The translations under genes and the position numbers were made by a program. Source: Actinomycetota bacterium (GTDB taxonomy: Bacteria; Actinomycetota; Acidimicrobiia; Acidimicrobiales; Ilumatobacteraceae). Taken from it: 37,050 nt of DNA. The stretch spans positions 1 through 37,050 of the forward strand of contig SXPV01000031.1 of the NCBI GenBank assembly GCA_005793215.1. Reading direction: 5' to 3'. The notes under the pieces are model-generated. The model saw only the letters and a list, made by a program, of their open reading frames with translations, ran no database searches and was not told the DNA's origin. Position 1 is the stretch's first letter. Every line of letters begins with the position of its first letter. Below are positions 1 to 23,411 of the stretch, one piece after another.

Positions 1-107
1 CCGAACTCTTCGCGGTAATCGTCGAGCATGGTGAACATCACGCCGTAGGCCGATGACTTCACGGCGATTGCCACGAATAGCGCGATGAGCAAACGCTTGC
101 GTGGCAC
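1..107 (-). CDS. MFS-like transporter, N-terminal fragment (runs off the window)
   Basis: Only the first 35 codons are in the window. Reading leftward from a GTG at 107, the protein starts V-P-R-K-R, followed by a hydrophobic stretch (LLIALFVAIAVKSSAYGVMF) and then an acidic loop MLDDYREEFG. A basic start, a first membrane helix and a short acidic loop are typical of the N-terminus of major facilitator superfamily permeases, but too little is present to name a substrate or to exclude another membrane family. The start is supported by a -10-like TAGCCT exactly 6 nt upstream, the spacing seen for many genes in this window. It is divergent from the aldehyde dehydrogenase gene, with 37 bp between the two starts. 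Confidence 0.5.
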   Translation of the reverse strand, partial: MPRKRLLIALFVAIAVKSSAYGVMFTMLDDYREEF

Positions 108-113
108 GCAGCG

Positions 114-119
114 AGGCTA
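114..119 (-). promoter_or_regulatory. -10 element TAGCCT of the MFS-like gene
   Basis: TAGCCT on the minus strand lies 6 nt upstream of the GTG at 107. It fits TANNNT with spacing for a leaderless transcript. No convincing -35 box is visible. Confidence 0.45.
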
Positions 120-144
120 CTGAATCATCTGCGACAATGGACGT

Positions 145-1524
145 GTGAGAGTTGTCAAGGTCATCAACCCATTCGACCAAACGGTCGTTGGTACGGTCCC
201 ACACGCCAGTACCCGTGATTGTCTGGATGCCGTCGACGCAGCGGATGCAGCATTTGCAGAGTGGCGCACGACAGCACCGCGTGCACGTGCAGAAATGTTG
301 CGCAAGGCGTTCGAGTTGATGATTGCAGAGCACGACGCTCTTGCAGAGTTGATCGTTCGCGAGAACGGCAAGGGGCTCGCTGATTCAAAGGCAGAAGTTA
401 CCTATGCCGCAGAATTCTTCCGCTGGTTCAGCGAAGAAGCCGTACGAATCGACGGTGATTATCGTCGCGCTCCATCCGGTGCCAACTGGCTGTTGGTATC
501 GCGTCAGCCCGTTGGCGTGTCATTGTTGGCGACACCCTGGAATTTCCCGGCAGCGATGGCCACACGCAAGATCGGACCAGCGTTGGCTGCGGGGTGCACC
601 GTGGTATTGAAGCCCGCAAGTGACACACCGCTCACCGCAATCGCCATCTGTGACATTCTCCGTCGCGTAGGCGTACCCGACGGCGTGGTCAATGTCGTCG
701 TGCCCGATCCGCCAGGTGATGCGGTGTCAGCGATGTTGTCGTCCGGCAAGGTACGAAAACTTTCGTTCACCGGCTCCACTCGCGTTGGTGCGTTGTTGTT
801 GGCTCAAGCCGCCGAACGAATCATCAACTGCTCCATGGAGTTGGGCGGCAACGCGCCATTGGTGGTGTTTGATGATGCCGACCTCGATGTTGCCGTTGAC
901 GGCGCAATGTTGGCCAAGATGCGCAATGGTGGCGCGGCTTGCACGGCAGCGAATCGATTCTTCGTACATGAACGAGTTCACGACAAATTCGTCGACATGT
1001 TCGTACAACGCATGTCTTCACTGGTGCTCGGCAACGGATTGGATACCGCCACGCACGTGGGGCCGCTCATCTCGCGGACGCAACAGGACAACGTTGCGTC
1101 ACTGGTCGACGGTGCAGTAGCGAGCGGTGCAACCGTGGTCTGCGGTGGCAAACGTGCGGGCGATGCATCGTTCGGGTATCACCCGACGGTGATCACCAAT
1201 GTGGGATTCGACGCAGCAATTCTCAAGGACGAAGTGTTCGGGCCAGTGGCGCCAATCGTGAGGTTCAGCGATGCCGACGACATTCTCCGCCACTGCAACT
1301 CGGTAGAACATGGTTTGGTGTCGTATGTCTTTACGCGCGACGTTGGAAAGGGTTTGCGGTTTGCTGAGGCACTCGACACCGGAATGATCGGCCTCAACCG
1401 CGGCCTCGTCAGCGACCCAGCCGCACCATTCGGCGGGGTGAAGGCGTCAGGCCTCGGGCGTGAAGGCGGACATGACGGCCTCCTGGCATTTCTCGAAACC
1501 AAATACGTCGCAGGTAACTGGTAA
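145..1524 (+). CDS. gabD: NADP-type succinate-semialdehyde dehydrogenase (GabD1-like)
   Basis: A 459-residue aldehyde dehydrogenase, probably oxidising succinate semialdehyde to succinate in the cytoplasm. Visible family landmarks are PWNFP (oxyanion Asn133), the cofactor loop SFTGSTRVG (residues 207-215), MELGGNAP (general base Glu232) and the nucleophile Cys266 in AACTAANR. The stretch around Glu232 and Cys266 matches mycobacterial GabD1 closely (from memory), which favours SSADH over other aldehyde dehydrogenases. The substrate cannot be proven by reading alone. The start is GTG at 145. A weak -10-like GACAAT (133-138) lies 6 nt upstream, so a leaderless message is possible. No second gene of a GABA pathway is in view. 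The gene is divergent from an MFS-like transporter that could move a related compound, which is only a guess from context. Confidence 0.85.
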   Translation: MRVVKVINPFDQTVVGTVPHASTRDCLDAVDAADAAFAEWRTTAPRARAEMLRKAFELMIAEHDALAELIVRENGKGLADSKAEVTYAAEFFRWFSEEAVRIDGDYRRAPSGANWLLVSRQPVGVSLLATPWNFPAAMATRKIGPALAAGCTVVLKPASDTPLTAIAICDILRRVGVPDGVVNVVVPDPPGDAVSAMLSSGKVRKLSFTGSTRVGALLLAQAAERIINCSMELGGNAPLVVFDDADLDVAVDGAMLAKMRNGGAACTAANRFFVHERVHDKFVDMFVQRMSSLVLGNGLDTATHVGPLISRTQQDNVASLVDGAVASGATVVCGGKRAGDASFGYHPTVITNVGFDAAILKDEVFGPVAPIVRFSDADDILRHCNSVEHGLVSYVFTRDVGKGLRFAEALDTGMIGLNRGLVSDPAAPFGGVKASGLGREGGHDGLLAFLETKYVAGNW

Positions 1525-7383: not shown

Positions 7384-7389
7384 AGACTA
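7384..7389 (-). promoter_or_regulatory. -10 element TAGTCT of the ABC operon, containing the upstream stop codon
   Basis: TAGTCT on the minus strand, 6 nt upstream of the GTG at 7377. Its first three bases are the TAG stop of the short-chain dehydrogenase gene (7387-7389). Confidence 0.5.
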
Positions 7390-8298
7390 TTGCTGAGGGC
7401 GGATGTCCAGACCGAAGCGTGCGTGAAATTCGTCGTAGTACGCCTCGTCATCGAGATGGCGACCGAACGACACCCACTCTTCATCACTCATTGCAGCACG
7501 CGCTGCAAGAAGTTCCTCTGCTCCCCAGGAACAATGCCAGCGGAGTCGCGGTACGGGTGTTGTTGCTGCTTCGAGAATGGTGGCTGCCGCCTCTTCGGCC
7601 GGTGTTGCGTTGGTGATGCCTGCGGCATAAAACGCAAAGAGCCGGCGATAGTGAGCGTCGTATGCACCCGATTGGTTCGGCGCGTCGATGTTCTTACCAA
7701 AAATGGAACTGCGCGTGATGCCTGGCTCAACGATTGCAACACGGATTCCAAATGGTGCGAGTTCATGGGCGAGACCTTCGCTCATTCCTTCCACCGCCCA
7801 TTTGGATACGTAGTAAGGCGACTGTGCGATTGCGGTGATTTTTCCAACGACGGATGACACGTTGACGATTGCGCCGCGACCGCGTTCACGCATGCCTGGC
7901 AACACCGCTTGGATGCATCGAACCGAGCCATTGTGGTTGATGTTGAAGACCTCGGTGTAGGTGTCGATCGGGCATTCCTCGGTCACGGAGTTTCCGCCCA
8001 CACCAGCGTTGTTGACGAGTACGTCGACGTGTGGTGCGGCAGCAAAGATCTGGGCAAACCCCGTGCTGACGGATGTTGAGTTGCCAACGTCCATTTCCAC
8101 CAGGGTGAGCCGATCGGCGACATTCAAGTCGCGTGCTTTGGTGAGCAACTTGTCGGCCTTGGCCAGCCCGCGAACGGTGCCAAACACGTGGTAGCCCGCC
8201 TGGGCAAAGGCCAGGGTGGTGGCACGACCAATGCCGGAATTGGCCCCGGTCACCACGGCGACTGATGAAGTGTTGGACAAGCGTTGCGGATCTGACAT
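7387..8298 (-). CDS. Short-chain dehydrogenase/reductase
   Basis: A 303-residue classical SDR, a cytoplasmic NAD(P)-dependent oxidoreductase. It shows the cofactor motif TGANSGIG (17-24), NNAG (96-99), the catalytic Ser near 148-149 in NVSSVVG, and Y162-x3-K166. PGITRS follows as the usual post-catalytic loop. The arginine after the second strand (TVRGLAK) suggests NADP preference. Substrate is not readable. An ATG at 8298 is chosen. TACCGT lies 7 nt upstream and the intervening GGAGG could alternatively act as a ribosome site for a slightly different start (GTG at 8307). The frame is open to 8418, but those extra residues are not SDR-like. It is divergent from the giant subtilase and immediately upstream of the ABC exporter. 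Confidence 0.85.
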   Translation of the reverse strand: MSDPQRLSNTSSVAVVTGANSGIGRATTLAFAQAGYHVFGTVRGLAKADKLLTKARDLNVADRLTLVEMDVGNSTSVSTGFAQIFAAAPHVDVLVNNAGVGGNSVTEECPIDTYTEVFNINHNGSVRCIQAVLPGMRERGRGAIVNVSSVVGKITAIAQSPYYVSKWAVEGMSEGLAHELAPFGIRVAIVEPGITRSSIFGKNIDAPNQSGAYDAHYRRLFAFYAAGITNATPAEEAAATILEAATTPVPRLRWHCSWGAEELLAARAAMSDEEWVSFGRHLDDEAYYDEFHARFGLDIRPQQ

Positions 8299-8305
8299 GG
8301 CCTCC

Positions 8306-8311
8306 ACGGTA
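8306..8311 (-). promoter_or_regulatory. -10 element TACCGT of the SDR gene
   Basis: TACCGT on the minus strand, 7 nt upstream of the ATG at 8298. Confidence 0.5.
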
Positions 8312-8373
8312 GGTGGTGCGGCGGCCGAAACGCCCCTGCGAAAATGTTGAAAAATCCTGTTACAGATACGGGG

Positions 8374-8379
8374 TACCCT
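8374..8379 (+). promoter_or_regulatory. -10 element TACCCT of the subtilase gene
   Basis: TACCCT ends 8 nt before the GTG at 8388. No Shine-Dalgarno sequence precedes that GTG, so leaderless initiation is likely. Confidence 0.4.
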
Positions 8380-8387
8380 GCCGTTAG

Positions 8388-11300
8388 GTGGTTGTGAGGA
8401 TTCGTCGCTTGGTAGCACTGTGCCTTGGAGCGGTTTCGCTCATGGCGTTGTTGCCGGTCGTACCTGCGGCAGCTGTGAGCGCGGTACCCGCAGTGGCGGG
8501 CGGCGACACCAAGGACTACATCGTCATTCTGAAGGACTCCGTCAGTGTTGCTGCAAAGGTGAACAAGGAAACTTCGCTCGGCAATGAGGTCAGTGATGTC
8601 TTTTCCAGCAAGGTGAAGGGATTCGTCGCTGAACTCGACAGCGCAGATGTTCGTCGCCTGAAGAACGACTCGCAAGTGTTGATCGTGGAGCCCGACTCCG
8701 TGATGTCGGTGATCGATACGCAGGAGTCAACGACTACTTCGTCGACGTCGAGCACCACCACGTCCACGAGTTCATCGACGTCGAGCACTACCACGTCCAC
8801 GAGTTCATCGACAACCAGCACCACCGTCGTGCCGTCGATAGACGACCTCGCCATCGGCGACCCGATTCCCGGTGAATACATCGTTACGTTGCGTGCCGGC
8901 GTCGGCGCTTCTGCTTTTGCGGCGGCACAGGCTGACAATGGGGTGGATGTGCTCGGCATCTTGACCGCCGCCATCAATGGCTTCGGCGCTCGACTCAGCA
9001 AGTCGCAACTTTCGCTTTTGGCAAGTGACCCCAATGTGACGCTCATCGAGGAGAACACCGTGGTGGGCATCGAAGCCGATCAGGCCAACCCGCCGTCGTG
9101 GGGACTCGACCGCATCGATCAACGATCGGCGAGTCGCGACAACAACTACTCCTACAACTTCACCGGGGCGGGCGTGAACGCCTACATCATCGACACCGGC
9201 GTACGCAGTGACCACCGTGAATTCGGTGGGCGAGTGGTAGCCGGTAGCACCCATGTGCACGACGGTCGCGGCACCGAGGACTGCAACAGGCACGGTACCC
9301 ACGTAGCCGGCACTGTCGGTGGGCAAACAGTTGGTGTTGCCAAGGCGGTCACCATCGTGCCCATTCGAGTGTTGTCATGTTCCGGAAGCGGCAGCATGTT
9401 CAACGTCATCGCAGGTGTCAACTGGATGATTCAACATCACGCAGCGGGCGTTCCTGCTGTCGCCAACATGAGCTTGGGTGGTAACCGAAACACTTCACTG
9501 AATCTGGCGGTGGCCAATGCCGTTGCTGACGGCATCACCATGGTGGTGGCAGCAGGGAACAGTCGCCGTGACGCAAGCACGTTCTCGCCAGCCTCGGAGC
9601 CCTCAGCCATCACCGTTGGCGCAACGTCGTCGAATGACGCACGGGCATCTTTCTCCAACTTCGGCTCCCTGCTTGACATTTTTGCGCCTGGTGTCAGCAT
9701 CCTCTCTGCCGGCCATCGATCATCCATTGAAACCGTCATGTTGTCGGGAACATCCATGGCAGCCCCACACGTAGCCGGCGCAGTCGCACTACTGCTGGAG
9801 GAGAATCCCGGATTGTCACCGAATGACGTTGCAACGATGCTGTCGTCGTATGCCACTCCCGACGTGGTTACCAATGCTGGAACCGGGTCGGTTAATCGGC
9901 TCCTGTACACACGCTCACGCTGGACACCACCAACTCCAGAAGCGCCAAGTGCACCACAAGGGCTCACCGTGGTTGCAGGAGTTGGCCAAGCATCGCTGAG
10001 CTGGACTGCACCAACCCAAAGTGGTGGTGCCAGCATCACCGACTACAAGGTGGAAGTCTCTGCAAACTCCGGTTCGACATGGCTCACGTTTGCTGACGGC
10101 ATCTCCGCATCCACCACGGCAATCGTCACAGGACTCACCAATGGCGTTACCTACTCATTTCGGGTCAGCGCAGAGAACTCCAGCGGCACGAGCCCAACGA
10201 GTGACGTGGTTCGAGCCGTCATCGGGGTTCCAACAGCACCGACAGGACTTACTGCAACGGCCGGTGCGGCTCAGGTGGTGTTGCGTTGGAGCGCGCCGAG
10301 CCACAATGGAGGATCTGCGGTTACCGATTACGTCATTGAGTACTCGTTCGACTCTGGTGATTCCTGGACGACGTTCGTCGATGGGGTTTCCGCAGCCTTG
10401 ACGGCGACGGTGACAGGTTTGACCAATGGCACCACGCATCTCTTCCGGGTGAGCGCGAAGAACGATGTCGGTACGGGTGCCGTATCGACCACTGCAACTG
10501 CAGTGCCATGGCAAGTAAATGCCCCAAGCGCACCTCGAGATCTCAGCATCACGACAGTGATGGCGACGTCCATCGCTCTTGAATGGCGGATTCCTGCAAC
10601 GGATGGTGGCGGTTTCATCACCGGCTACGTTGTCGAACAATCGAGTAACGGCGGTTCGTCATGGTCTACTTCGGTAGTAACCGGCACCGGCGGGCGTGCG
10701 GGCGGCATCTGGTACACCACCGTGTACAGCCTCGTGTCGGGACGCGAGTACCTCTTCCGAGTGCGCGCCACCAATTCGGCAGGAAATTCCGAACCCTCTG
10801 TGGCGACCTCGCCGCAAGCACCGGGAATACCAAGCGCCCCTGAAGATGTTCGAGCCACCGAGGCGGGTGCTCGCCGAATCACGTTGCGCTGGGAAAAGCC
10901 GACCTCCGACGGTGGCAGTGGATTGCGCGGTTACACGATTGAGTACTCGACGGATAATGGTTCGAGCTGGATCGCATGGCCCCAGAACACCGGTGTGGAA
11001 GGTTGTACATGTCAGTACATGTCACGTACCGTCACCGATCTTGCCGATGGCATAGCCCACATCTTCCGAGTGAAGGCGTACAACGCAGTAGGTATTGGTC
11101 CTGTCTCGGAACCCACAGACCCGATGACTCCTCTTACACCAGCGGCGCCGGGCCAGCCAGTCAACGTCATGGGCACCGCGACGCCAGCCGTTGTGGAGCT
11201 CGACTGGGAGGCGCCGGAGAGCGATGGCGGCGCACCAGTTACCGATTACATCGTGGAGTATTCGGTGAATGCTGGCGCGTCATGGACAACCTACGTTGAC

Positions 11301-13790
11301 GGCACGAGCACTGCGACCTTGTCGTCGTTGCGCGACCTTACTCCTGGTGTTGCGCACGTATTCCGTGTGAGTGCGGTGAACTCCGCCGGTCGCGGCTCAC
11401 CCTCAACAGCGTCCAGCCCCGTGGTTCCACTGCCGCCATTGGTGAACGATGCTTTTGCCGGTGCTACTGCAATCGTGTGTGGCGACGACTGCCAATCAGG
11501 AACGTTGGTTCGTCTCACCAGCTCCACCCGATCGGCAACGCGTGAAACCGGCGAGCCAAGTCACGGGGGTTACGGTGCCTCAGCATCACTCTGGTATTCG
11601 TTCAACCTCAATCGGGCCGGCACCGTGGTGATCGATACGCAAGGTAGTGACTTCGACACGTTGCTCGGCGTGTACACGGGCAGTGCTGTGAACGCGCTCA
11701 CCACGATTACCACGAATGACGATGCACCTGGAGGCAACTGGAGCCGAGTCGAAGTGATCCCGAGATTGGACACCACGTACTGGGTGGCCATCGACGGTTA
11801 CGGCAATCGCAAGGGCGCGACGACACTCAACTGGCGATTCACCGAAGCCCCACCCGCCCAGAAGCCGTCTGTTCCATTGAACGTGCGTGCAGTCGCGGGG
11901 AATGCCCAGGCAACGGTCTATTGGTCGGCGCCAGAGAGCGATGGTGGAGCAATCATCACTGCCTACACGGTGACTGCGTCACCGGGCGGTCGTACGTGCG
12001 TAACTTCCGGAGCGTTGACGTGTTCCATCGCTGGACTCACCAACGGCACCGCGTACACCTTTGTAGTTACCGCAACCAACAGCGCTGGCACCAGCAGTGC
12101 ATCGGCAGCATCCGAACCTGTCACACCGCGTGCGGAGACCAACGATGGTGTCACGACACTGTCGTGGGGATTGGACCGCATCGACCAACGCGTGTTGCCT
12201 CTTGACACTCGATACTCACGTACACAGTCGGGGGCAGGCGTTACCGCCTACGTCGTGGATACCGGCGTGCGCGCCACCCACAGCGACCTTGCTGGACGTG
12301 TGGCTACTGGATTCTCCACGATCAGTGACGGCAATGGCAGTAGTGACTGTCACGGCCATGGCACGCACGTTGCGGGCACAATTGCCGGCACCAACTACGG
12401 CGTTGCGCCAGCCGCCTTGGTGGTGCCGATTCGCGTGATGAATTGCAGTGGTTCGGGAAGTACCTCGGACATCATCGCCGGAATCGATTGGATCATCACT
12501 CACCACCAGAGTGGTGTTCCGGCAGTTGCCAACATGAGTCTTGGTGGTCCTCGTTCTGCGGCACTCGATCTGGCGGTGGCGCGAGGCGTTGCGGATGGTG
12601 TCACGTTCGTGGTCGCGGCAGGAAACTCCAACGTAAGTGCGTGCACGGTGTCGCCAGCCGGCGAACCGCTCGCCATCACCGTGGGGTCGACCACCTCAAG
12701 CGACGATCGATCGTCGTTCTCCAATTTCGGCTCGTGCTTGGATGTGTTTGCGCCCGGCTCAAACATTGTGTCGGCAGGACACACCTCCGACAGTGCGACG
12801 CGCTCGATGTCGGGTACCTCGATGGCTGCGCCACATGTCGCAGGAGTCGCGGCATTGGCGTTGTCACAGAATCCCTCGATGTCGCCGGCGGATGTTGCAT
12901 CGGCGATTGCTACGTCGGCAACGCGAAACGTCGTTAGCAATCCAGGTATCGGTTCACCCAACCGATTGGTGTACTCGTTGCTTACGCCGGTACCAAACGC
13001 TGATGATGATGCACCGACCACGACATCAACCACTTCCACCACATCCACCACCTCGACGTCCGTCGTGACGACCACGACGCTTCCATCGCGCGGTGGCGGA
13101 GGCGATGGTGGCGGAGGAGGAGATCGTGGTGGCGGAGGCGGCGGTGGGGACGACGACGAACCGGCGACAACTACGTCGACGTTGGCGCGCCCCTCCCGTG
13201 CTGCAGCCCCCACAACAACGTCACCGACGACCACGTCACCGACCGTGACGTCAACCACAACACCATCGACTGCGACCTCAAATCCAGTAGCCCCGGTCGC
13301 CCCAGCACGCACTGCAGCGCCGGCCGCTGGTGTGCGCCCGGCCATTGGGACTCCGCCCCCATCCCTGCCAGCGTTGACGCGCCCGTTGCCGGCGGCGATT
13401 CGCGCGATTGGTCAGGTGCTGCGAGTGGAAGTCACTGCGCCAAAGGGTGCTCTGATTCATATTTATAAGGACGGACAATTGTGGAAGTCCGTCACACCCG
13501 AGGAAGCCAAGCGGGTTTCGATCCCGGCCAATGGATCGAGCGCCGACGACGTCCAAGTGGTGGTCGTGACTCGTACTGGCGAGGTGATGTCGACACCAAT
13601 ACCGTCAGATGCTGCACCGGGGGATGACTCTGCACCGACACCGGGTTCGAGTAGTTCAACCATTGGCACACGCCCAGTCGCAAACACCAGGACGAAAGCC
13701 ACCACTCGAACGACGGTTCCACGCTCGAAAGCCGGAAGCAAGTCCGGTCAACGTTCAACGACCGACACGGCCAAGCCACCGACCAAATAG
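8388..13790 (+). CDS. Giant secreted protein with two complete subtilisin (S8) domains and Fn3 repeats
   Basis: 1800 residues, exported by an N-terminal signal peptide (basic start, hydrophobic core about 10-25). Order: I9 propeptide (about 43-110); Thr/Ser linker (113-148) with a duplicated 11-residue unit; second I9 propeptide (about 162-228); first S8 domain (about 236-512) with Asp269, His302 and Ser456; five Fn3 domains (from about 519, 614, 712, 814 and 920); a PPC-like beta domain (about 1016-1154) with GSDFDTLLGVYTG; a sixth Fn3 (about 1159-1250); second S8 domain (about 1258-1533) with Asp1291, His1324 and Ser1478; a Thr-, Gly- and Asp-rich linker (to about 1660); a small C-terminal domain (about 1662-1738); and a basic tail. 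Both triads sit in intact motifs (DTG, HGTH, GTSMAAPH). The two S8 domains are alike enough (both open SWGLDRIDQR) to indicate internal duplication. No LPXTG anchor is seen. Likely an extracellular protein-degrading or adhesive protease. Confidence 0.92.
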   Translation: MVVRIRRLVALCLGAVSLMALLPVVPAAAVSAVPAVAGGDTKDYIVILKDSVSVAAKVNKETSLGNEVSDVFSSKVKGFVAELDSADVRRLKNDSQVLIVEPDSVMSVIDTQESTTTSSTSSTTTSTSSSTSSTTTSTSSSTTSTTVVPSIDDLAIGDPIPGEYIVTLRAGVGASAFAAAQADNGVDVLGILTAAINGFGARLSKSQLSLLASDPNVTLIEENTVVGIEADQANPPSWGLDRIDQRSASRDNNYSYNFTGAGVNAYIIDTGVRSDHREFGGRVVAGSTHVHDGRGTEDCNRHGTHVAGTVGGQTVGVAKAVTIVPIRVLSCSGSGSMFNVIAGVNWMIQHHAAGVPAVANMSLGGNRNTSLNLAVANAVADGITMVVAAGNSRRDASTFSPASEPSAITVGATSSNDARASFSNFGSLLDIFAPGVSILSAGHRSSIETVMLSGTSMAAPHVAGAVALLLEENPGLSPNDVATMLSSYATPDVVTNAGTGSVNRLLYTRSRWTPPTPEAPSAPQGLTVVAGVGQASLSWTAPTQSGGASITDYKVEVSANSGSTWLTFADGISASTTAIVTGLTNGVTYSFRVSAENSSGTSPTSDVVRAVIGVPTAPTGLTATAGAAQVVLRWSAPSHNGGSAVTDYVIEYSFDSGDSWTTFVDGVSAALTATVTGLTNGTTHLFRVSAKNDVGTGAVSTTATAVPWQVNAPSAPRDLSITTVMATSIALEWRIPATDGGGFITGYVVEQSSNGGSSWSTSVVTGTGGRAGGIWYTTVYSLVSGREYLFRVRATNSAGNSEPSVATSPQAPGIPSAPEDVRATEAGARRITLRWEKPTSDGGSGLRGYTIEYSTDNGSSWIAWPQNTGVEGCTCQYMSRTVTDLADGIAHIFRVKAYNAVGIGPVSEPTDPMTPLTPAAPGQPVNVMGTATPAVVELDWEAPESDGGAPVTDYIVEYSVNAGASWTTYVDGTSTATLSSLRDLTPGVAHVFRVSAVNSAGRGSPSTASSPVVPLPPLVNDAFAGATAIVCGDDCQSGTLVRLTSSTRSATRETGEPSHGGYGASASLWYSFNLNRAGTVVIDTQGSDFDTLLGVYTGSAVNALTTITTNDDAPGGNWSRVEVIPRLDTTYWVAIDGYGNRKGATTLNWRFTEAPPAQKPSVPLNVRAVAGNAQATVYWSAPESDGGAIITAYTVTASPGGRTCVTSGALTCSIAGLTNGTAYTFVVTATNSAGTSSASAASEPVTPRAETNDGVTTLSWGLDRIDQRVLPLDTRYSRTQSGAGVTAYVVDTGVRATHSDLAGRVATGFSTISDGNGSSDCHGHGTHVAGTIAGTNYGVAPAALVVPIRVMNCSGSGSTSDIIAGIDWIITHHQSGVPAVANMSLGGPRSAALDLAVARGVADGVTFVVAAGNSNVSACTVSPAGEPLAITVGSTTSSDDRSSFSNFGSCLDVFAPGSNIVSAGHTSDSATRSMSGTSMAAPHVAGVAALALSQNPSMSPADVASAIATSATRNVVSNPGIGSPNRLVYSLLTPVPNADDDAPTTTSTTSTTSTTSTSVVTTTTLPSRGGGGDGGGGGDRGGGGGGGDDDEPATTTSTLARPSRAAAPTTTSPTTTSPTVTSTTTPSTATSNPVAPVAPARTAAPAAGVRPAIGTPPPSLPALTRPLPAAIRAIGQVLRVEVTAPKGALIHIYKDGQLWKSVTPEEAKRVSIPANGSSADDVQVVVVTRTGEVMSTPIPSDAAPGDDSAPTPGSSSSTIGTRPVANTRTKATTRTTVPRSKAGSKSGQRSTTDTAKPPTK
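8742..8807 (+). repeat. 33-bp tandem duplication encoding a Ser/Thr linker
   Basis: Two adjacent 33-bp units (8742-8774 and 8775-8807) differ at a single base and encode a repeated STSSTTTSTSS-type 11-mer between the two I9 propeptides. Length variation here would change linker length without a frameshift. Confidence 0.8.
13018..13270 (+). repeat. Low-complexity Thr/Ser and Gly/Asp coding tract
   Basis: ACC/ACG/TCC-type codons give TTSTTSTTST-like runs, then GGT/GGC/GGA codons give a poly-Gly/Asp stretch (about 13092-13160), then a second Thr/Ser/Pro run. It links the second protease domain to the C-terminal domain. Long open frames on the minus strand here are artefacts of the composition. 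Confidence 0.7.
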
Positions 13791-13913: not shown

Positions 13914-15329
13914 ATGAAACCAACAGCGAGCACTCTCGGACAATTGAAGGCATCGGGCTGGAAGTCGCGCTCGGTAAAAGAGGAGATTCGTGAGAACTCC
14001 GTCGCACGAATTCGAGCAGGACTGCCGCTGAGCGAAAGCATTCTTGGTTACGACGACACCGTGATGCCGCAGTTGCACAACGCGCTGTTGGCTGGCCACG
14101 ACATCGTGTTCCTCGGTGAACGCGGCCAGGGAAAGACACGCATCATTCGTTCGCTCACCGGGTTGCTTGATGAGTGGATGCCCATCGTGGCGGGGAGCGA
14201 GATCAACGATGATCCGTATCAACCCGTGTCACGTCACGCTCGCGACGCCGTAGCCGAGCATGGAGACAACACTCCAATCAGCTGGGTGCATCGCGATGAT
14301 CGCTATGGGGAAAAACTGGCCACTCCGGACACCTCCATTGCGGACCTCATTGGCGAAGTTGATCCCATCAAGGTCGCCGAGGGTCGTTATCTCAGCGACG
14401 AACTCACCCTGCATTACGGATTGGTGCCGCGCACCAATCGTGGGATCTTTGCCATCAACGAGTTGCCCGACCTCTCGGAGCGCATCCAAGTGGGTTTGCT
14501 GAATGTGCTGGAAGAACGCGATGTGCAGGTACGCGGCTACAAGATTCGACTCCCGCTCGATGTCCTGCTCGTTGCATCAGCAAACCCGGAGGACTACACC
14601 AACCGAGGCCGCATCATCACTCCATTGAAGGATCGTTTCGGCAGCCAGATTCGTACCCACTATCCACTCGATGTTGCCACGGAGATGGCGATCGTGCGAC
14701 AAGAGGCGCGCCCGGCAACCATCGGTGACGTAGCGGTGTATTACCCGGCATTCATGGAAGAAATCGTTGCCGAGATCAGTCACCTGGCACGTGCGAACGC
14801 CAATGTGAGCCAACGCAGTGGCGTGAGCGTTCGCGTGTCGGTGAGCAACCATGAATTGCTTGCAGCAAATGCCGTCCGCCGTGGGCTTCGAGCAGGAGAA
14901 TCTGCGGTTGCACCGCGAGTGAGCGATCTCGATGCGCTGGTGGCGTCCACCGCCGGAAAGATCGAAATTGAAAGCGTCGACGACGGACGAGAAGGTGCAG
15001 TGTTCGAACAATTGCTACGTGGTGCTGTGCTCCAAGTGTTCAAACGCCGAGTGTCCGGCGACAAAACCAAGGAAGTCGTGGCGGCATTCGAGGCCGGTGC
15101 TGTTGCGAACACCGGAGAAGATGTGTCGTCAACGGATCTCCTGGAGTTTGCCAAACAAGTTCCGGAGTTACGGGCGCTCGCAGTGAAGCTCGGCGATGGC
15201 AACGAGTCGCCCGCTGCAATCGCCAGTGCAGTGGAGTTCGTGTTGGAAGGTTTGCACTTGGCGAAGCGACTCAACAAGGACGCATCGGGTGGTCGAGCCG
15301 TGTATCGCGGGCGTTCCGCAGCGGTCTAG
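13914..15329 (+). CDS. AAA+ ATPase of the magnesium-chelatase/MoxR type
   Basis: A 471-residue cytoplasmic ATPase. Walker A GERGQGKT (68-75) follows the strand HDIVFL. Walker B is GIFAINELPDL, with N-E in place of the common D-E. Sensor 1 is in LLVASANPED, and the arginine finger region is PLKDRFGSQI. The insertion SIADLIGEVDPIKVAEGRY and the ChlI-like loop before Walker B match the Mg-chelatase I-subunit branch, but no tetrapyrrole genes are near. The pair with the VWA protein at 15927 resembles mycobacterial Rv0958/Rv0959 (from memory). Such pairs act as chaperone-like remodellers or metal-insertion machines, so a role in maturing a target protein is inferred. A cyclase gene on the opposite strand separates it from its partner. 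No tag or membrane segment is seen. Confidence 0.85.
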   Translation: MKPTASTLGQLKASGWKSRSVKEEIRENSVARIRAGLPLSESILGYDDTVMPQLHNALLAGHDIVFLGERGQGKTRIIRSLTGLLDEWMPIVAGSEINDDPYQPVSRHARDAVAEHGDNTPISWVHRDDRYGEKLATPDTSIADLIGEVDPIKVAEGRYLSDELTLHYGLVPRTNRGIFAINELPDLSERIQVGLLNVLEERDVQVRGYKIRLPLDVLLVASANPEDYTNRGRIITPLKDRFGSQIRTHYPLDVATEMAIVRQEARPATIGDVAVYYPAFMEEIVAEISHLARANANVSQRSGVSVRVSVSNHELLAANAVRRGLRAGESAVAPRVSDLDALVASTAGKIEIESVDDGREGAVFEQLLRGAVLQVFKRRVSGDKTKEVVAAFEAGAVANTGEDVSSTDLLEFAKQVPELRALAVKLGDGNESPAAIASAVEFVLEGLHLAKRLNKDASGGRAVYRGRSAAV

Positions 15330-15378: not shown

Positions 15379-15900
15379 TTCGCCGGTGTCATTGCGGTAC
15401 TTGGTGGGAGCAAGTCCCACGAGTCGTGAGGCGTGCACGGGGTGGTCGAAGCCACGCAGGTTGAAGTAACCGACGGGTTCGGCGGTGATGCCTTCTGGCA
15501 GATGTACCGCATCCTCGGTGGGCATGAGGATTCCGTAGTTTGCGGCTTCATCACACAGTCGTGACGCCAGATTCGGGGCGTCGCCGATGTAGTCCTCACC
15601 TTCGAACAAGATGATGAGCCCGGAGGCAATCCCGATACGAAGTCGAAGTTCCCCGAGGCGCTCGGCGAATCGTCGCTGAAGCTCGAGAGCAAAAATCACG
15701 CCAGCATTCTGTTCCACCGCGATGGCCATGAAACCGTCGCCGAGGTGCTTGGCAATGCGGACCCCCACTTCGGACGCAAGGTCACGTGAAACCTCACGGA
15801 AGTCCTTCAGCATGGCTTTGGCTTGGTCGTCGTCCGTGCGCTGAATGAACGAGGTAAACCCCGAGAGGTCGACGAAAATGATCGTGCGTGGGTAACGCAT
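15349..15900 (-). CDS. Stand-alone class III adenylate/guanylate cyclase domain
   Basis: A 183-residue single-domain cyclase homology domain with no membrane segment or sensor domain. The two metal-binding aspartates are present (Asp11 in FVDLSGFTSF and Asp55 in KHLGDGFMA), and the transition-state Asn and Arg are in DAPNLASRL. An active enzyme making cAMP or cGMP as a homodimer is therefore plausible, but I cannot tell the nucleotide from reading. The last 40 residues (AEPVGYFNLRGFDHPVHASRLVG) are the usual tail after the domain. ATG 15900 is chosen because GAGGGG lies 4 nt upstream. An in-frame ATG at 15912 is the alternative. The gene is nested between the AAA+ and VWA genes, converging on the first and divergent from the second. 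Confidence 0.82.
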   Translation of the reverse strand: MRYPRTIIFVDLSGFTSFIQRTDDDQAKAMLKDFREVSRDLASEVGVRIAKHLGDGFMAIAVEQNAGVIFALELQRRFAERLGELRLRIGIASGLIILFEGEDYIGDAPNLASRLCDEAANYGILMPTEDAVHLPEGITAEPVGYFNLRGFDHPVHASRLVGLAPTKYRNDTGEHWTRTPFAV

Positions 15901-15910
15901 CGTGCCCCTC

Positions 15911-15916
15911 ATGCTA
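15911..15916 (-). promoter_or_regulatory. Candidate -10 element TAGCAT of the cyclase gene
   Basis: TAGCAT on the minus strand, 10 nt upstream of ATG 15900. It shares its TA dinucleotide with the opposing -10 of the VWA gene, so the two promoters physically overlap. Confidence 0.3.
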
Positions 15917-15920
15917 CGGT
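15915..15920 (+). promoter_or_regulatory. -10 element TACGGT of the VWA gene
   Basis: TACGGT ends 6 nt before the GTG at 15927. It supports GTG as a leaderless start rather than the upstream frame extension to 15888. Confidence 0.5.
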
Positions 15921-15926
15921 TCGCAC

Positions 15927-17945
15927 GTGGGCCTTCGTTTTACGTATTCGCGCTGGGATGGTACCCAGAAGGGTTTCGAGCTCGATGCCGACTCGTTGTT
16001 GAGTGAGATAACGGATGAACTCATTCACCACGGCGACCCGAACGCAGCCCTGCGTCGCATCATGCAGCAGGGATTGCGCGATCGCAATGGTCGGAACATC
16101 GAAGGCATCCGACAAGCGCTAGAGCGTCTCCGGGAAAAGCGAAAAGAAATTCGTGAGCGGGGGAACGTCGGGCACGAGTTCGACGATGTGGCCAGCGAGC
16201 TCAACGACATCGTGGACGAAGAACGTCTTGCCGTTGATTCAGCGGAGCGTGCCGCGATGGAGTCAGGTGATGCCCGTCGTGCCGACGTAGCCAAGGAATC
16301 AGCGATGAACCGTCGACTGCAACTCGACATGCTTCCCGATGACTTGGCCCGCAAGATCGAAGCGTTGTCGCACTATGACTTTCAGTCTCCAGAGGCACAG
16401 TTGCGTTTCGAGCAACTCTCCGAGCGACTGCGGGATCAGCTTTCCAAACGTCAGTTCGAGCAAGTGGCAAGTGGCATTGAGAACATCACTCCCGAAGCGC
16501 TGGCGCGGATGAACGAGATGATGAAAGCACTCAACGACATGATCGAGCGTCGGCAGCGCGGCGAGGATCCACAGTTCGAAGAATTCATGAAGAAGTTCGG
16601 GGAGTTCTTCCCGGAGAACCCTGCCACACTCGACGAACTCCTCGAACTAATCGCCAAACGCATGGCAGCAGCCCAAGCCATTCTCAACTCGATGACTCCC
16701 GAACAACGTGCCGAGTTGCAGGAGCTCACCGACCAGATGCTTGGCGACAACGAAGTTCGTGAGCAGATGCAGCGACTCAATGCCAACATGCAGGCAATGT
16801 TCCCCAACATGGGGTGGGGCGACTCGCAGGAATTCACGGGCGACCAACCAATGCCTTTCGGCGAGGCCTTGCGAAGCATGCAAGAACTGAGTGATCTGAA
16901 TGATCTCGAGCAGTTCCTGCAGAACGCCACCTCGCCGTCTGCGCTGCAAGAAGTGGATCTCGACAAGGTTCGAGACCTCCTGGGTGACGTGACGGCAGAG
17001 TCGTTGGATCGGCTTGCACGACTGACGGAGACCCTCCGACAGGCGGGACTCGTCGATCAAAAGGAAGGACGTCTGGAGCTCACACCGAGAGGATTGCGAA
17101 AAATCGGAAAGCAGGCTCTGAGCGACCTGTTTGGCCAGTTGGAGCGTGACACTCTCGGCCAACACCGAATCGAGCGCATTGGCACCGGGCATGAACGGGC
17201 GCATGACACCAAGCCATATGAGTATGGCGACCCGTTTCACCTCGACCTGCAGCAAACGCTCCGCAACACGCTGCGTCGGCAAGGTGGCGGATTGCCATTG
17301 AGGCTCTCCCCGGACGACTTTGAGATCGATCAGACCGAGCAACTCACTCGGTCGTCCACCGTGTTGATGGTGGACCTTTCGCTGTCCATGCCGATGCGAG
17401 ACAACTTTTTACCCGCCAAAAAGGTGGCCATGGCCCTGCATTCGCTGATTTCGTCGCAGTTCCCACGGGACTACTTGGGCCTCGTTGGATTCAGCGAGAC
17501 GGCTCGCGAGTTGCGCCACGACCAGCTCCCCGAAGTGTCCTGGGACTTCGTCTACGGCACAAATATGCAGCATGGTTTCGCACTTGCCCGACGCATGTTG
17601 GCCCGCCAGTCGGGCACCAAGCAAATCATCATGATTACGGATGGTGAACCAACGGCACATATTCGCCCCGACGGGGAGGTGTTCTTCAGCTATCCGCCCG
17701 CATACTCCACGATTGAAACCACCCTGCGCGAGGTCATGCGTTGCACGCGTGACGACATTCGGATCAACACCTTCATGCTCGACGCCGATGGTGCTTTGCG
17801 CAGTTTCATCGAGCAACTCACCGCAATCAACAAAGGACGGGCGTTCTTCACCACACCAGAGACCCTCGGTGAGTACGTGCTGGTGGACTTCTTGGAACAC
17901 AAGCGATTGCTGCGCGCCACTGGTGGTCGTCGCCGAGCGAGTTAG
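15927..17945 (+). CDS. VWA-domain protein, partner of the AAA+ ATPase
   Basis: 672 residues starting VGLRFTYSRWDGTQ at GTG 15927. The N-terminal two thirds are highly charged and helical (many Glu, Arg, Gln and Met; repeated ERL/EQL heptad-like stretches between about 50 and 400). The C-terminal third is a von Willebrand A domain (about 475-660) with an intact MIDAS: DLSLS starting at Asp483, a Thr in the VYGTN loop and TDGEP. No signal peptide or membrane helix, so it is cytoplasmic. In MoxR/ChlI-type systems the VWA partner recruits substrate to the AAA+ ring via MIDAS-bound metal. The length equals my memory of the mycobacterial Rv0959-like protein. An imperfect inverted repeat follows the stop. 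Confidence 0.85.
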   Translation: MGLRFTYSRWDGTQKGFELDADSLLSEITDELIHHGDPNAALRRIMQQGLRDRNGRNIEGIRQALERLREKRKEIRERGNVGHEFDDVASELNDIVDEERLAVDSAERAAMESGDARRADVAKESAMNRRLQLDMLPDDLARKIEALSHYDFQSPEAQLRFEQLSERLRDQLSKRQFEQVASGIENITPEALARMNEMMKALNDMIERRQRGEDPQFEEFMKKFGEFFPENPATLDELLELIAKRMAAAQAILNSMTPEQRAELQELTDQMLGDNEVREQMQRLNANMQAMFPNMGWGDSQEFTGDQPMPFGEALRSMQELSDLNDLEQFLQNATSPSALQEVDLDKVRDLLGDVTAESLDRLARLTETLRQAGLVDQKEGRLELTPRGLRKIGKQALSDLFGQLERDTLGQHRIERIGTGHERAHDTKPYEYGDPFHLDLQQTLRNTLRRQGGGLPLRLSPDDFEIDQTEQLTRSSTVLMVDLSLSMPMRDNFLPAKKVAMALHSLISSQFPRDYLGLVGFSETARELRHDQLPEVSWDFVYGTNMQHGFALARRMLARQSGTKQIIMITDGEPTAHIRPDGEVFFSYPPAYSTIETTLREVMRCTRDDIRINTFMLDADGALRSFIEQLTAINKGRAFFTTPETLGEYVLVDFLEHKRLLRATGGRRRAS

Positions 17946-18552: not shown

Positions 18553-18577
18553 GGCCGGTGTCTGAGGCTCAGGCCTC
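18547..18577. terminator. Hairpins between tatA and ppx
   Basis: GAGGC-TCAG-GCCTC (18564-18577) is a perfect small hairpin covering the ppx stop. Alternatively GCCTGAG (18547-18553) pairs with CTCAGGC (18568-18574). They lie in the 16-bp gap between converging genes and are a plausible bidirectional terminator. Confidence 0.4.
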
Positions 18578-20107
18578 GCTGAGTTTCACTTTTCGTTTGC
18601 TGACGTCAGCCAACAGGCCCTTGCGCTCGTTGGCGGCATAGAGGTTGAGCGAAATATCGTTCTTTTTCCCTCGTGACTTGGCGGTTATCAATAGTTCACT
18701 CGTGCTCACCTTGACCGAGATGGTCTTCACGCGTGCGTCGTAGGTGCGATCGAGCCCGATGGCAATCCGCAGGATCCCCGCGAGATGTTGCACGATTCGT
18801 TGGTCGGTACTGGACAGTGCGGAAAACTCGGTGTGCTCGGTCTTGGGGACGCTCTTTCGGTGGTAGCGCGCCACCTGGGCGATGATCTCCACCTCGCGAT
18901 CGGTGAGGCCCATGAGTTCCGAATTCCGTATGAGGTAATAGGAGTGCAGGTGGTGTTTGGCGTGTGACACCACCACCCCAACGTTGGCCAGCAGGCTCGC
19001 GAACTCCAGATAGCGACGCCACTCGGGTTGTAGGTTCAGCGGTTCCTCGAGCTGTTCGAAGAGCTGGATTGCCAATTCGGCGACGTGCTGCGAGTGCTCC
19101 GGACGGTCGTCGCAACGGTCGGCAAGTTGTTGCACACTTCGCCGTGCTGCATCATGATCGTCGTCCACCTCAATGAGGCCTTCACGGCGCAGCGTGTCGA
19201 GTAGCAGTCCCTCGCGAAGTGCGTAGTCGGAGAACATCAACGACTTCAGTTCGAAGACGTCGACTACTCCCTCGAGGATCAGGGCCCCAGCCAGGATGAT
19301 GTCGGCGCGATTTGGTTCCAGGCCAAATAGCTTCACGCGCTCGTCGATGGTGGGAGCACTTTGCAGGGCAGTCACCACCGACCGCACCTCGTCGGCAGAG
19401 AACTCGAATCGGTTCATGCTCTTTGGTTCCGACGCGCCGCGTGTGTGCAAGATGATTCGCGCAATCGTTTCTGCAGTACCGGACGAGGTGGCCACCGCCT
19501 CGAATCCCAACTCCATCACCTCTGGTGCCACCACCGACAACGACGAACGAATGAAAGAGCGACAACTAGGAATGGCGCTCGGGTGCAAGGTTGTACCGGC
19601 GAAGAAACGGTCGGTAAGTCGCACCGCGCCGAGTTTGAAACTGCGGGCGAACATTACTTCGTCATCGAGACCAACCACCACCTCGGTGCTACCGCCACCG
19701 ATATCGCACACGAACATCGATTGATCGTGGATACCGATGGCGTTCAGAACTCCAAGGTGGATGAGGCGAGCCTCCTCCACACCGGAGATGACTTCGATAT
19801 CGATGCCGGTTGCCTTGCGAACCTGCTTGATGAACTCCGATCGATTCTTTGCCTCGCGAACGGCGCTGGTTGCCACGGCGCGAACTTCGGCACCATGTGA
19901 TGAAGCAATCTCCGCCATGCGGGCAAGGCTCTTTACTCCACGCCCGATTGCCTCTTCGGAGAGTTGCTTCATATCGCCACCGCCGTGGCCGAGTCGAACC
20001 ACATCCTTCTCGCGCGTGACCACTTCGAAGCCACCGGGAACGGGTTTGGCAATCACCAAATGAAAGCTGTTGGTGCCAATGTCCAGCGCGGCTACGAGCT
20101 CGCTCAT
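18569..20107 (-). CDS. ppx: Exopolyphosphatase / pppGpp phosphatase (Ppx/GppA)
   Basis: A 512-residue member of the ASKHA family that hydrolyses polyphosphate, or pppGpp, in the cytoplasm. It shows the phosphate-1 loop ALDIGTNSFHLV (7-18), the catalytic Glu in SGVEEARLIHLGV, the phosphate-2 loop CDIGGGSTEV and SSGTAETIARI. Beyond about residue 320 there is an HD-like helical domain with several His (SHAKHHLHSYYL), as in the long E. coli-type Ppx (513 residues). The frame is open back to 20470, but the ATG at 20107 starts exactly at the conserved N-terminus and has TATCGT 8 nt upstream. It is divergent from the small gene that leads into ppk, so synthesis and breakdown of polyphosphate lie back to back. 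Confidence 0.9.
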   Translation of the reverse strand: MSELVAALDIGTNSFHLVIAKPVPGGFEVVTREKDVVRLGHGGGDMKQLSEEAIGRGVKSLARMAEIASSHGAEVRAVATSAVREAKNRSEFIKQVRKATGIDIEVISGVEEARLIHLGVLNAIGIHDQSMFVCDIGGGSTEVVVGLDDEVMFARSFKLGAVRLTDRFFAGTTLHPSAIPSCRSFIRSSLSVVAPEVMELGFEAVATSSGTAETIARIILHTRGASEPKSMNRFEFSADEVRSVVTALQSAPTIDERVKLFGLEPNRADIILAGALILEGVVDVFELKSLMFSDYALREGLLLDTLRREGLIEVDDDHDAARRSVQQLADRCDDRPEHSQHVAELAIQLFEQLEEPLNLQPEWRRYLEFASLLANVGVVVSHAKHHLHSYYLIRNSELMGLTDREVEIIAQVARYHRKSVPKTEHTEFSALSSTDQRIVQHLAGILRIAIGLDRTYDARVKTISVKVSTSELLITAKSRGKKNDISLNLYAANERKGLLADVSKRKVKLSEA

Positions 20108-20115
20108 TCGTTCCG

Positions 20116-20125
20116 ACGATAGCCT
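20116..20125. promoter_or_regulatory. Overlapping divergent -10 elements of ppx and the 85-residue gene
   Basis: TATCGT on the minus strand (20116-20121, 8 nt before the ppx ATG) and TAGCCT on the plus strand (20120-20125) share the TA at 20120-20121. The plus-strand box would give a short leader containing GAGGAG (20136-20141) before the ATG at 20147. Only one polymerase could occupy the site at a time. Confidence 0.4.
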
Positions 20126-20146
20126 CTCTGTTCCCGAGGAGTCCCC

Positions 20147-20404
20147 ATGTCTGACGTCACCAAAGAGCCACCCCGAGCCCACATCCGCATTACCTACACC
20201 GGTCCGGTGTACCCCCACTGGGAGATCGTCGGCGACTACGGCGATCCTGAACTCATCGATGAGTTCGCCCGTCGCGCCTACATGCGACTCCTGTACGTTC
20301 CGATGAAGGACAGCCAGTTCCGCCGCAATCGTGAGCGCATCAACAAGGATGCCGAGAACGAGAACGTCAGCGTGGAGTGGTTTCCGGTCGAAGTCAACAA
20401 CTAG
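20147..20404 (+). CDS. Small conserved-looking protein of unknown function upstream of ppk
   Basis: An 85-residue soluble protein that I do not recognise. It begins MSDVTKEPPRAHIRITYTGP, contains the aromatic strand VYPHWEIVGDYGD, a helix ELIDEFARRAYMRLL, a basic stretch KDSQFRRNRERINKDAENE and a final strand VSVEWFPVEVNN. A beta-alpha-beta layout fits a small folded domain. It has a good ribosome site (GAGGAG, 5 nt before ATG 20147), which with its normal codon use argues that it is a real gene. It lies between ppx (divergent) and ppk (49 bp downstream, same strand), so a link to polyphosphate metabolism is possible by context only. Confidence 0.65.
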   Translation: MSDVTKEPPRAHIRITYTGPVYPHWEIVGDYGDPELIDEFARRAYMRLLYVPMKDSQFRRNRERINKDAENENVSVEWFPVEVNN

Positions 20405-20413
20405 CCCCTTTCC

Positions 20414-20445
20414 CCGCGTACGTGAGCCGGGCAGTCCGCGTACGT
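20414..20445 (+). promoter_or_regulatory. Direct repeat upstream of ppk, candidate operator
   Basis: CCGCGTACGT occurs at 20414-20423 and again at 20436-20445, a perfect 10-bp repeat with 22-bp centre-to-centre spacing, i.e. two helical turns. It ends 8 bp before the GTG of ppk. The spacing suits two protomers on one DNA face, but the half-site is not the GTTCA type seen before phoU. Confidence 0.4.
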
Positions 20446-20453
20446 CGTAAACG

Positions 20454-22580: not shown

Positions 22581-22584
22581 GTCA

Positions 22585-22628
22585 GTTCACGAACTGTTCA
22601 GCCGTTGTCCAACGGGTGTTCAGGTTTT
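22585..22628 (+). promoter_or_regulatory. Candidate PHO box: four 11-bp direct-repeat units upstream of phoU
   Basis: Units begin at 22585 (GTTCACGAACT), 22596 (GTTCAGCCGTT), 22607 (GTCCAACGGGT) and 22618 (GTTCAGGTTTT), i.e. exactly 11 bp apart. Three have GTTCA and the third has GTCCA. PhoP of Streptomyces and RegX3 of mycobacteria bind GTTCA-type direct repeats with 11-bp periodicity. RegX3 is encoded two genes downstream, so autoregulation is likely. The segment also contains CCGTT-GTCC-AACGG, which could form a weak ppk terminator hairpin instead. Confidence 0.6.
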
Positions 22629-22664
22629 TGCACGGAGTTACAGGGGTTGGGGGCGTAGCGTGCC

Positions 22665-22670
22665 TACCGT
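22665..22670 (+). promoter_or_regulatory. -10 element TACCGT of the phoU-senX3-regX3 operon
   Basis: TACCGT ends 7 nt before the ATG at 22678. It fits leaderless initiation and fixes the phoU start well downstream of the frame's first codon. Confidence 0.5.
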
Positions 22671-22677
22671 AGAGACC

Positions 22678-23397
22678 ATGGAAGAGACCAGAAAGTCGTA
22701 CCATTCCGAACTCGATGAGTTGAGAGCACTCGTGGTTCACCTCGGAGCCTCGGTGATTGAACTGATTCCCCGCGCCACGAACGTGTTGTTGAGCGGCGAT
22801 CTCGAGGGAGCGGATTATCTGGTGCAGTCCGACGACGAAATCGACGCGCGGGCACACGACATCGAAAGTCGAACCTTCGAGATCCTCGCGCTGCAAGCAC
22901 CAGTGGCAGGCGAACTGCGGCAGTTGGTGTCGATCATCAAGATTACGAGCGACCTCGAGCGTTCGGCAGATTTGGCGGTGAACATCTGCAAGGCGGCACG
23001 TCGGATCTACGGTAAGGAGATTGACCCCGTGTTGCGCGGTCTCATCTCCAAGATGAGTGAGCAAGCAGAGCAGTTGTATCAATCAGCCATCAATTCGTTC
23101 GCCGAGAACGATGCGGCAACGGCGGCAGCCATAGAGGACATGGACTCGTTCCTGGACGCCTTGCATCGACAGTTCGTTCAAGCGATCTTCGAAACTCATG
23201 CACGTGAACGAATGGACCTTCAACTGGCGGTGCAATTGGCAATCGTTGCACGCTTCTATGAGCGCATTGGCGATCATGCAGTAAACATCGGTGAGCGTGT
23301 GCAGTTTGCCCTCACCGGCTGGAAGCCCGAACTTCGGGCCATCCAACGCCAGCGTCAGCGTGATGCCACTGGCGAGTTTCCGATTACGAAGGGTTAA
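22678..23397 (+). CDS. phoU: Phosphate signalling protein PhoU
   Basis: A 239-residue, all-helical cytoplasmic protein made of two PhoU repeats (about 10-110 and 115-215). Metal-binding signatures of the family are visible as DLERSADLAVNICK in the first repeat and YERIGDHAVNIGERV in the second. PhoU links the Pst phosphate transporter to the sensor kinase and represses the regulon when phosphate is ample. Here it precedes senX3 by 14 bp, in an order reminiscent of actinobacteria. The pst genes are not in the window. The frame is open back to 22531, but the upstream codons are not PhoU-like, and METRK-type start METs with a -10 at 7 nt support 22678. Confidence 0.93.
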   Translation: MEETRKSYHSELDELRALVVHLGASVIELIPRATNVLLSGDLEGADYLVQSDDEIDARAHDIESRTFEILALQAPVAGELRQLVSIIKITSDLERSADLAVNICKAARRIYGKEIDPVLRGLISKMSEQAEQLYQSAINSFAENDAATAAAIEDMDSFLDALHRQFVQAIFETHARERMDLQLAVQLAIVARFYERIGDHAVNIGERVQFALTGWKPELRAIQRQRQRDATGEFPITKG

Positions 23398-23411
23398 CTG
23401 CAGCCATCGCG

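Follow-up and report, generated by a model that had tools for sequence, protein, structure and literature searches.

Subtilase propeptides are intramolecular chaperones that adjoin their enzyme. Several serine protease domains in one chain are found, as in the protein described here, in the polyserases, which are human proteins with the trypsin fold. Within the S8 proteases, two domains are likewise fused in one polypeptide in CspBA, which occurs in Clostridioides difficile and in four further clostridia, according to the portions of PMC3567191 and PMC12880746 consulted. CspBA is a spore protein in which the CspA prodomain lies between the heads, and its second head is a pseudoprotease in C. 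difficile. The portion of PMC3567191 consulted describes the CspB prodomain as both chaperone and inhibitor, working in trans and specific for its enzyme. Similarly, the consulted part of PMC10580911 reports specific inhibition by the propeptide of pernisine, with Bacillus propeptides being more promiscuous.

We have analyzed a stretch of 37,050 nucleotides (the window; contig SXPV01000031.1, GCA_005793215.1) from an actinobacterium of the family Ilumatobacteraceae, which encodes a secreted-type S8 protease with two heads. Unlike CspBA of C. difficile, this protein has both catalytic triads intact, and in its family both propeptide-type I9 domains precede the first head. The CspBA profile (NCBIfam NF040809) scored it at 34.7 bits, against a cut-off of 1250. 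The open-licence PMC papers searched gave no description of two S8 heads with stacked or remote propeptides, nor of the single-headed I9-PPC-PPC-S8 proteins presented below.

Anatomy of the two-headed protease

The protease is encoded on the forward strand by one open reading frame (8388..13790) that has a GTG start and runs without interruption over 1800 codons (ORF list; Pfam). Its domain order is I9a-I9b-S8a-Fn3x5-PPC-Fn3-S8b-tail, all features lying on the same strand. The basic, hydrophobic and Ala-rich start is suggestive of a signal peptide (8388..8474). It is followed by the outer propeptide-type domain I9a (residues 42-107; 8511..8708), a Ser/Thr-rich linker (8709..8864) that measures 5-118 aa in relatives, and the inner propeptide I9b (residues 160-228; 8865..9071). 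The first protease, S8a (residues 231-510; 9078..9917), carries the triad D269, H302 and S456. Five Fn3 domains (residues 518-1022; 9939..11453), a PPC-like domain (residues 1030-1152; 11475..11843) and a sixth Fn3 domain (residues 1156-1250; 11853..12137) lead to the second protease, S8b (residues 1256-1535; 12153..12992), with the triad D1291, H1324 and S1478 and no preceding I9. A small C-terminal domain (residues ~1640-1735; 13305..13592), for which Pfam gave nothing above gathering score, is kept in relatives. The tail in front of it is Thr/Pro/Gly-rich and of low complexity, and surface attachment is possible.

Pfam recognized Peptidase_S8 twice (276.4 bits over both stretches, cut-off 21.8), fn3 six times and Inhibitor_I9 twice; taken over the whole protein, each of the three families scored above its own gathering threshold. 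The PPC-like domain fell below the threshold (PF04151, 18.6 bits vs. a gathering score of 25.9); the same domain type passes Pfam in the single-headed relative L047 (31.6 bits, gathering score 25.9). Both heads contain the Asp/His/Ser triad and the oxyanion Asn, and both open with SWGLDRIDQR, encoded by a near-identical 30-nt stretch (family D4, 90%). The first-pass annotation had placed the triads at exactly these residues and had described the common opening, the separation of the heads by six Fn3 domains and a PPC-like domain, and the stacking of two I9 domains at the N-terminus with none before the second protease; all of this agrees with the sequence and with Pfam, the PPC-like call standing below its gathering score. 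S8a and S8b share 60.7% identity over 272 aa; between I9a and I9b the identity is 26% over 65 aa.

Among solved structures, those of aqualysin I, a Serratia proteinase K-like enzyme and a Meiothermus keratinase are closest; the entries 4dzt, 2b6n, 8c4z and 5wsl came out on top both by sequence and for the structure model of the window protein. The window protein has the catalytic domains and the I9 propeptide in common with the aqualysin I/proteinase K-like subtilases (S8A). Judged by sequence, both heads are of this type, and proteolytic activity is predicted for them. The mycosin profile (type VII secretion, TIGR03921) was considered and rejected: it gave 264.1 bits for the whole protein in two stretches, below the NCBIfam cut-off of 278.75.

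The first head has the layout of an I9-propeptide subtilase, with I9b ending 3 aa before S8a by profile boundaries. The annotated S8A relatives outside the group are single-headed, and nearly every one that has an I9 carries it next to S8. The two S8 domains of the window protein are the only ones found in its draft genome, which consists of 143 contigs and is 82% complete. The two-headed arrangement goes far beyond what chance would produce, and other genomes repeat the complete domain order.

Probable pairing of the I9 domains with the protease heads

Including that of the window, 50 ORFs encoding two S8 domains were read; they come from 50 genomes and seven genera (g1, g2, g5, g6, g8, g22 and g23) of one family. 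The genomes are a choice of those, among the 221 of the family, that have two matches on one frame, and two-headed ORFs number at least 50. In 44 of them, 139 or more residues precede the first S8, and in all 44 this region holds exactly two I9 domains. I9a is cut by the contig end in L140 and broken by unknown bases in L227; it is recognized only partly in L217, L221, L223, L224, L241 and L229, and by a weak match in L219. As for the other six ORFs, five begin at the edge of a contig, and L136 begins after a frame break. In none of the 50 ORFs did the I9 search find such a domain downstream of the first S8, either directly before the second head or elsewhere between the heads, where CspBA carries a prodomain. 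The spacing of I9b from S8a is 2-15 aa (3 aa in 34/44), and I9b is the ordinary propeptide of S8a.

The region between the heads is far more variable, consisting of Fn3x5-PPC-Fn3, runs of Fn3, alternations of Fn3 and PPC, or PPC-Fn3 alone, with a gap between S8a and S8b of 298-795 aa in relatives. With two I9 domains per two S8 domains across this variable spacer, I9 number follows S8 number although the remaining protein has been rebuilt. Single-headed S8 ORFs with an equal N-terminus (n = 73) had one I9 in 66 cases, two in two and none in five, three of the latter (L134, L141 and one half of L216) representing just the C-terminal part of a two-headed gene. The two ORFs with a pair of I9 domains are L028, where the contig ends inside an Fn3 run and which is probably two-headed, and L089, whose second match is weak.

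These counts bear on the reading that both I9 domains form a tandem prodomain of S8a, with S8b folding by itself or being helped in trans by I9b that is released once S8a has matured. Both I9 domains do precede S8a. According to the consulted part of PMC10580911, folding without a propeptide occurs in some calcium-driven subtilases, and the propeptides of mesophilic Bacillus show promiscuity. In addition, a split gene in genome G088 (L216:5051-8606) has S8a and S8b on two overlapping ORFs and one recognized I9, which adjoins S8a; I9a was not found upstream of it in any frame over the 650 bases before the I9. This locus may represent an S8b that lacks I9a, a two-headed gene that is decaying or has been split, or the outcome of sequencing frameshifts. 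Against the tandem reading, the single-headed proteins have one I9 in 66 of 73 cases and two in just two, one of these being the probably two-headed L028. Together with the single-headed relatives and the structure model presented next, this makes the tandem reading unlikely.

Relatives in the G586 genus provide a natural separation of the domains. L047 (SXZC01000056.1) is single-headed with the order I9-PPC-PPC-S8, and the proteins of this genus have either this order or I9-PPC-PPC-Fn3-Fn3-S8. The genus comprises 20 genomes, 19 of them with a match, and 15 were read. It probably belongs to a family other than the window's, since its matches are absent among the matches listed for that family. 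With profiles of I9a, I9b, S8a and S8b built from two-headed proteins only, all 18 I9 domains of the genus (15 genomes) preferred the I9a profile over that of I9b by 9.3-33 bits, a margin with a comparable case in 1 of 102 other single-headed I9 domains (L052). By the same kind of comparison, the S8b profile gave the higher score for 13 of its 19 S8 domains and the S8a profile for the other six (by 1-13 bits). Tandem single-headed S8 genes with a remote I9, with or without two extra Fn3 domains, were seen in L285, L286, L287 and L288, one of those in L285 being cut by the contig end.

The S8 domains were then placed in a careful tree of 70 chosen rows, which followed a quick tree of 92 rows and included 13 of the 19 G586-genus domains. 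All 13 fell into one clade with 14 of the 19 S8b rows (support 97/92), with no S8a row inside; the clade also holds two single-headed g3 proteins and L292, which is probably the second half of the L028 protein. The S8b domains of g5, g6 and L248 group apart from it, in a clade of their own (99/96). A quick I9 tree (66 columns) grouped the L047 I9 and the first I9 of L028 with 17 of 23 I9a rows (SH-aLRT 99), the other six I9a rows, again from g5, g6 and L248, lying outside. Thus, the G586-genus proteins combine an I9a-type I9 with an S8b-clade S8 and have other domains between the two; unlike the two-headed proteins, they have neither I9b nor S8a, so where I9b and S8a are absent, I9a with S8b remain. 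This co-occurrence speaks against I9a being part of a prodomain of S8a. The careful tree is compatible both with insertion of I9b-S8a-Fn3 into an L047-type protein and with a deletion yielding the L047 type.

The g3 proteins (L244 and L245) are single-headed, with the order I9-S8, and are encoded beside ABC and FtsX genes, like the window protease; L244 also has Fpg and NUDIX genes nearby that resemble those beside the window protease. Their S8 lies within the S8b clade on a long branch, and their I9 leans to I9a by 4-6 bits. The g3 case is suggestive only with regard to the I9a/S8b pairing. Across 103 single-headed proteins, the type preferences of I9 and S8 showed no significant correlation (rho 0.15, p 0.12), so the pairing argument is carried only by the proteins with a remote I9.

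Comparison of distance matrices within 34 two-headed proteins (16 of the 50 ORFs had domain stretches too short or missing) is a weak test, the ranges quoted being subsample ranges and not confidence intervals. I9b preferred S8a by 0.38 (0.08 to 0.61) and, when each group was represented by a single protein, by 0.26 (-0.01 to 0.55). The preference of I9a for S8b was 0.12 (-0.38 to 0.40) in 70% subsamples and 0.30 (0.10 to 0.46) in the sampling by single group representatives, being clear in only one of the two samplings.

We have also modeled both arrangements with AlphaFold, using alignments of rows hand-picked from 82 contiguous I9-S8 stretches together with stretches of the window protein, L025, L028, L029 and L047. 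Most of these rows are proteins with adjacent I9 and S8, which favors docking. A 670-aa stretch of L047 (54 rows) was modeled with a mean pLDDT of 78.5 and a pTM of 0.62, the I9 and S8 blocks lying mostly above 90 and the PPC domains lower. Unautoprocessed pro-subtilisin E (3whi_A) could be superimposed by VIA-align on positions 5..665 of this model with 335 of its 355 residues, at 2.2 Å; the listed chains that matched the catalytic domain alone covered 259-281 residues. The remote I9 is therefore predicted to sit on S8 as in a zymogen, across two PPC domains, a docking that the input alignment favors.

For residues 39-513 of the window protein (33 rows), the model reached a pLDDT of 88.6 and a pTM of 0.76, and 329 residues of 3whi_A matched positions 123..475, corresponding to I9b and S8a, at 2.0 Å. 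I9a was folded, with most blocks above 90, and lay outside this match. The model thus places I9b, and not I9a, on S8a, which speaks against a tandem prodomain; this choice is favored by the input alignment. The short L047 row of that alignment (I9 only, with stray residues) was aligned to I9b and not to I9a.

Based on the I9 counts and on the single-headed I9a-type and S8b-type pairs, we consider it likely that I9a is the remote propeptide of S8b, located more than 1000 residues downstream. The first-pass annotation had offered two readings, one in which the distal head has the additional I9 as its helper, the second I9 being the candidate, and one in which the distal head matures in a different way. 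The idea of an I9 for the distal head is supported, with the roles exchanged: it is the outer I9a that probably matches S8b, the inner I9b being the ordinary propeptide of S8a.

Conservation and genomic setting of the fused heads

Within the window's genus (13 genomes), both heads matched on one open frame in 10 genomes, the window's included. Two others (G001 and G008) showed the C-terminal part only, at a contig end, and one (G010) gave no match. One of the 10 is G003 (L136), whose frame is broken within S8a. A class-wide draw of 395 genomes gave an S8b match at 1e-60 in 31. Two S8b matches on one open frame were present in 12 of these 31, all from the window's family; as both heads had to match at 1e-60, a weaker second head would be invisible here. 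The two-headed ORF also occurs on contigs matching the public records BGOG01000040.1 and CAMBDT010000011.1. L024, L025 and L029 were removed as duplicates of L153, L152 and L234, respectively.

In the aligned rows, S8a keeps the His, Asn and Ser in all 47 and the Asp in 46, the row lacking Asp being L136, in which the region is missing through a frame break. S8b keeps all four residues in 47 of 47 rows. The dN/dS ratios within the genus were 0.034-0.043 for S8b and 0.047-0.088 for S8a (three of four pairs, those with computable dS, which was near saturation). Within the genus, purifying selection acts on both heads, and the two-headed proteins are a real, conserved family of the S8 kind.

A few related loci differ in layout. 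The frame break of L136 (genome G003, L136:1-1300) lies inside S8a, the preceding frame holding I9a, I9b and the start of S8a. In g8 (L211-L216 and L243), a second, single-headed S8-Fn3x3 gene adjoins the two-headed gene, one copy being cut by the contig end. A further S8 domain of the window's family (G143:C1:78919-79818) is located in an open frame of 6930 aa.

Having two complete catalytic domains, the protein could alternatively be a polyprotein that is cut in the Fn3 region to yield two independent proteases, and CspBA is indeed cleaved between its heads, as stated in the portions of PMC12880746 and PMC3567191 consulted. This is doubtful, since the heads have stayed fused across seven genera while the spacer between them was rebuilt; the idea is compatible with the I9a-S8b pairing rather than competing with it. 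Besides such a split, the first-pass annotation had suggested that polymeric substrates could be bound and cut by the two heads. An assembly error or frameshift joining two genes, which the first-pass annotation had wished to see checked along with the occurrence of the arrangement elsewhere, might be suspected in a draft genome of 143 contigs at 82% completeness, and it is refuted by both heads lying on one open frame in 50 genomes.

Upstream of the window protease lie genes for an ABC transporter, FtsX and an SDR protein. The SDR ORF (7387-8418, reverse strand), as listed, overlaps the protease start on the opposite strand; the SDR gene probably begins further inside this ORF, which would leave room for a divergent promoter region. 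Downstream, on the forward strand, are a MoxR-like AAA gene (13914-15329) and a gene for a VWA protein (15888-17945). The order protease-MoxR-VWA recurs in g1, g2 and g23 wherever the contigs extend far enough, and it was not seen in the sequence stretches examined of g5, g6, g8 and g22. Hence, a working link of the protease with MoxR and VWA is possible and is not needed. Further along the window (18569-25348), Ppx, polyphosphate kinase, PhoU, a histidine kinase and a response regulator are encoded in one run, forming a phosphate/polyphosphate cluster. A literature search on the ecology of the window's group gave nothing specific.

Proposed maturation of the precursor

If I9a is the propeptide of S8b, the order becomes nested, I9a-(I9b-S8a-Fn3x5)-PPC-Fn3-S8b, and one protease cassette would lie between another protease and its propeptide. 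In the maturation that we propose, the protein would be secreted, and I9b would fold and inhibit S8a and then be cut off at the junction, as in usual pro-aqualysin. This step is well supported by homology. We infer those that follow, namely long-distance chaperoning, the sequence of cleavages and the role of the finished enzyme. I9a would fold back along the chain to S8b, ~1150 residues downstream, which it could reach via the linker and the Fn3/PPC string, and it would fold S8b and plug it, with the I9a tail in the S8b active site.

As the I9a tail does not run on into the S8b N-terminus, the latter could be in its mature place from the start, and it is the I9a-I9b linker that would need cutting. 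The S8b N-terminus would remain joined to Fn3, an N-terminal cut being unneeded. S8b would be freed by cutting of the Ser/Thr-rich linker and of I9a, either by S8a or by S8b itself, and the mature product would be a double-headed enzyme on an Fn3/PPC rod.

A tentative extension, which we regard as possible but not as the probable course of events, is that activation is ordered in cis. S8a would first mature on I9b and would then cut the I9a-I9b linker that holds S8b shut. The precursor would form a closed loop, and the outer propeptide would fold its enzyme past a complete second enzyme. If true, this would amount to a protease cascade within one polypeptide and to subtilase maturation without a cut at the enzyme's own N-terminus.

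Two heads in one polypeptide are already known from CspBA. What is surprising here are the stacked, nested propeptides, one of which probably acts at a distance. In such proteins, hundreds of residues would lie between the propeptide and its enzyme, including a whole protease in the two-headed form. Because nature offers adjacent (I9b-S8a), remote single (L047) and nested forms, both tolerance of distance and cognate specificity can be tested directly. For the bacterium itself, which has a small genome, we predict that a single gene of this kind may be enough to retain extracellular proteolysis.
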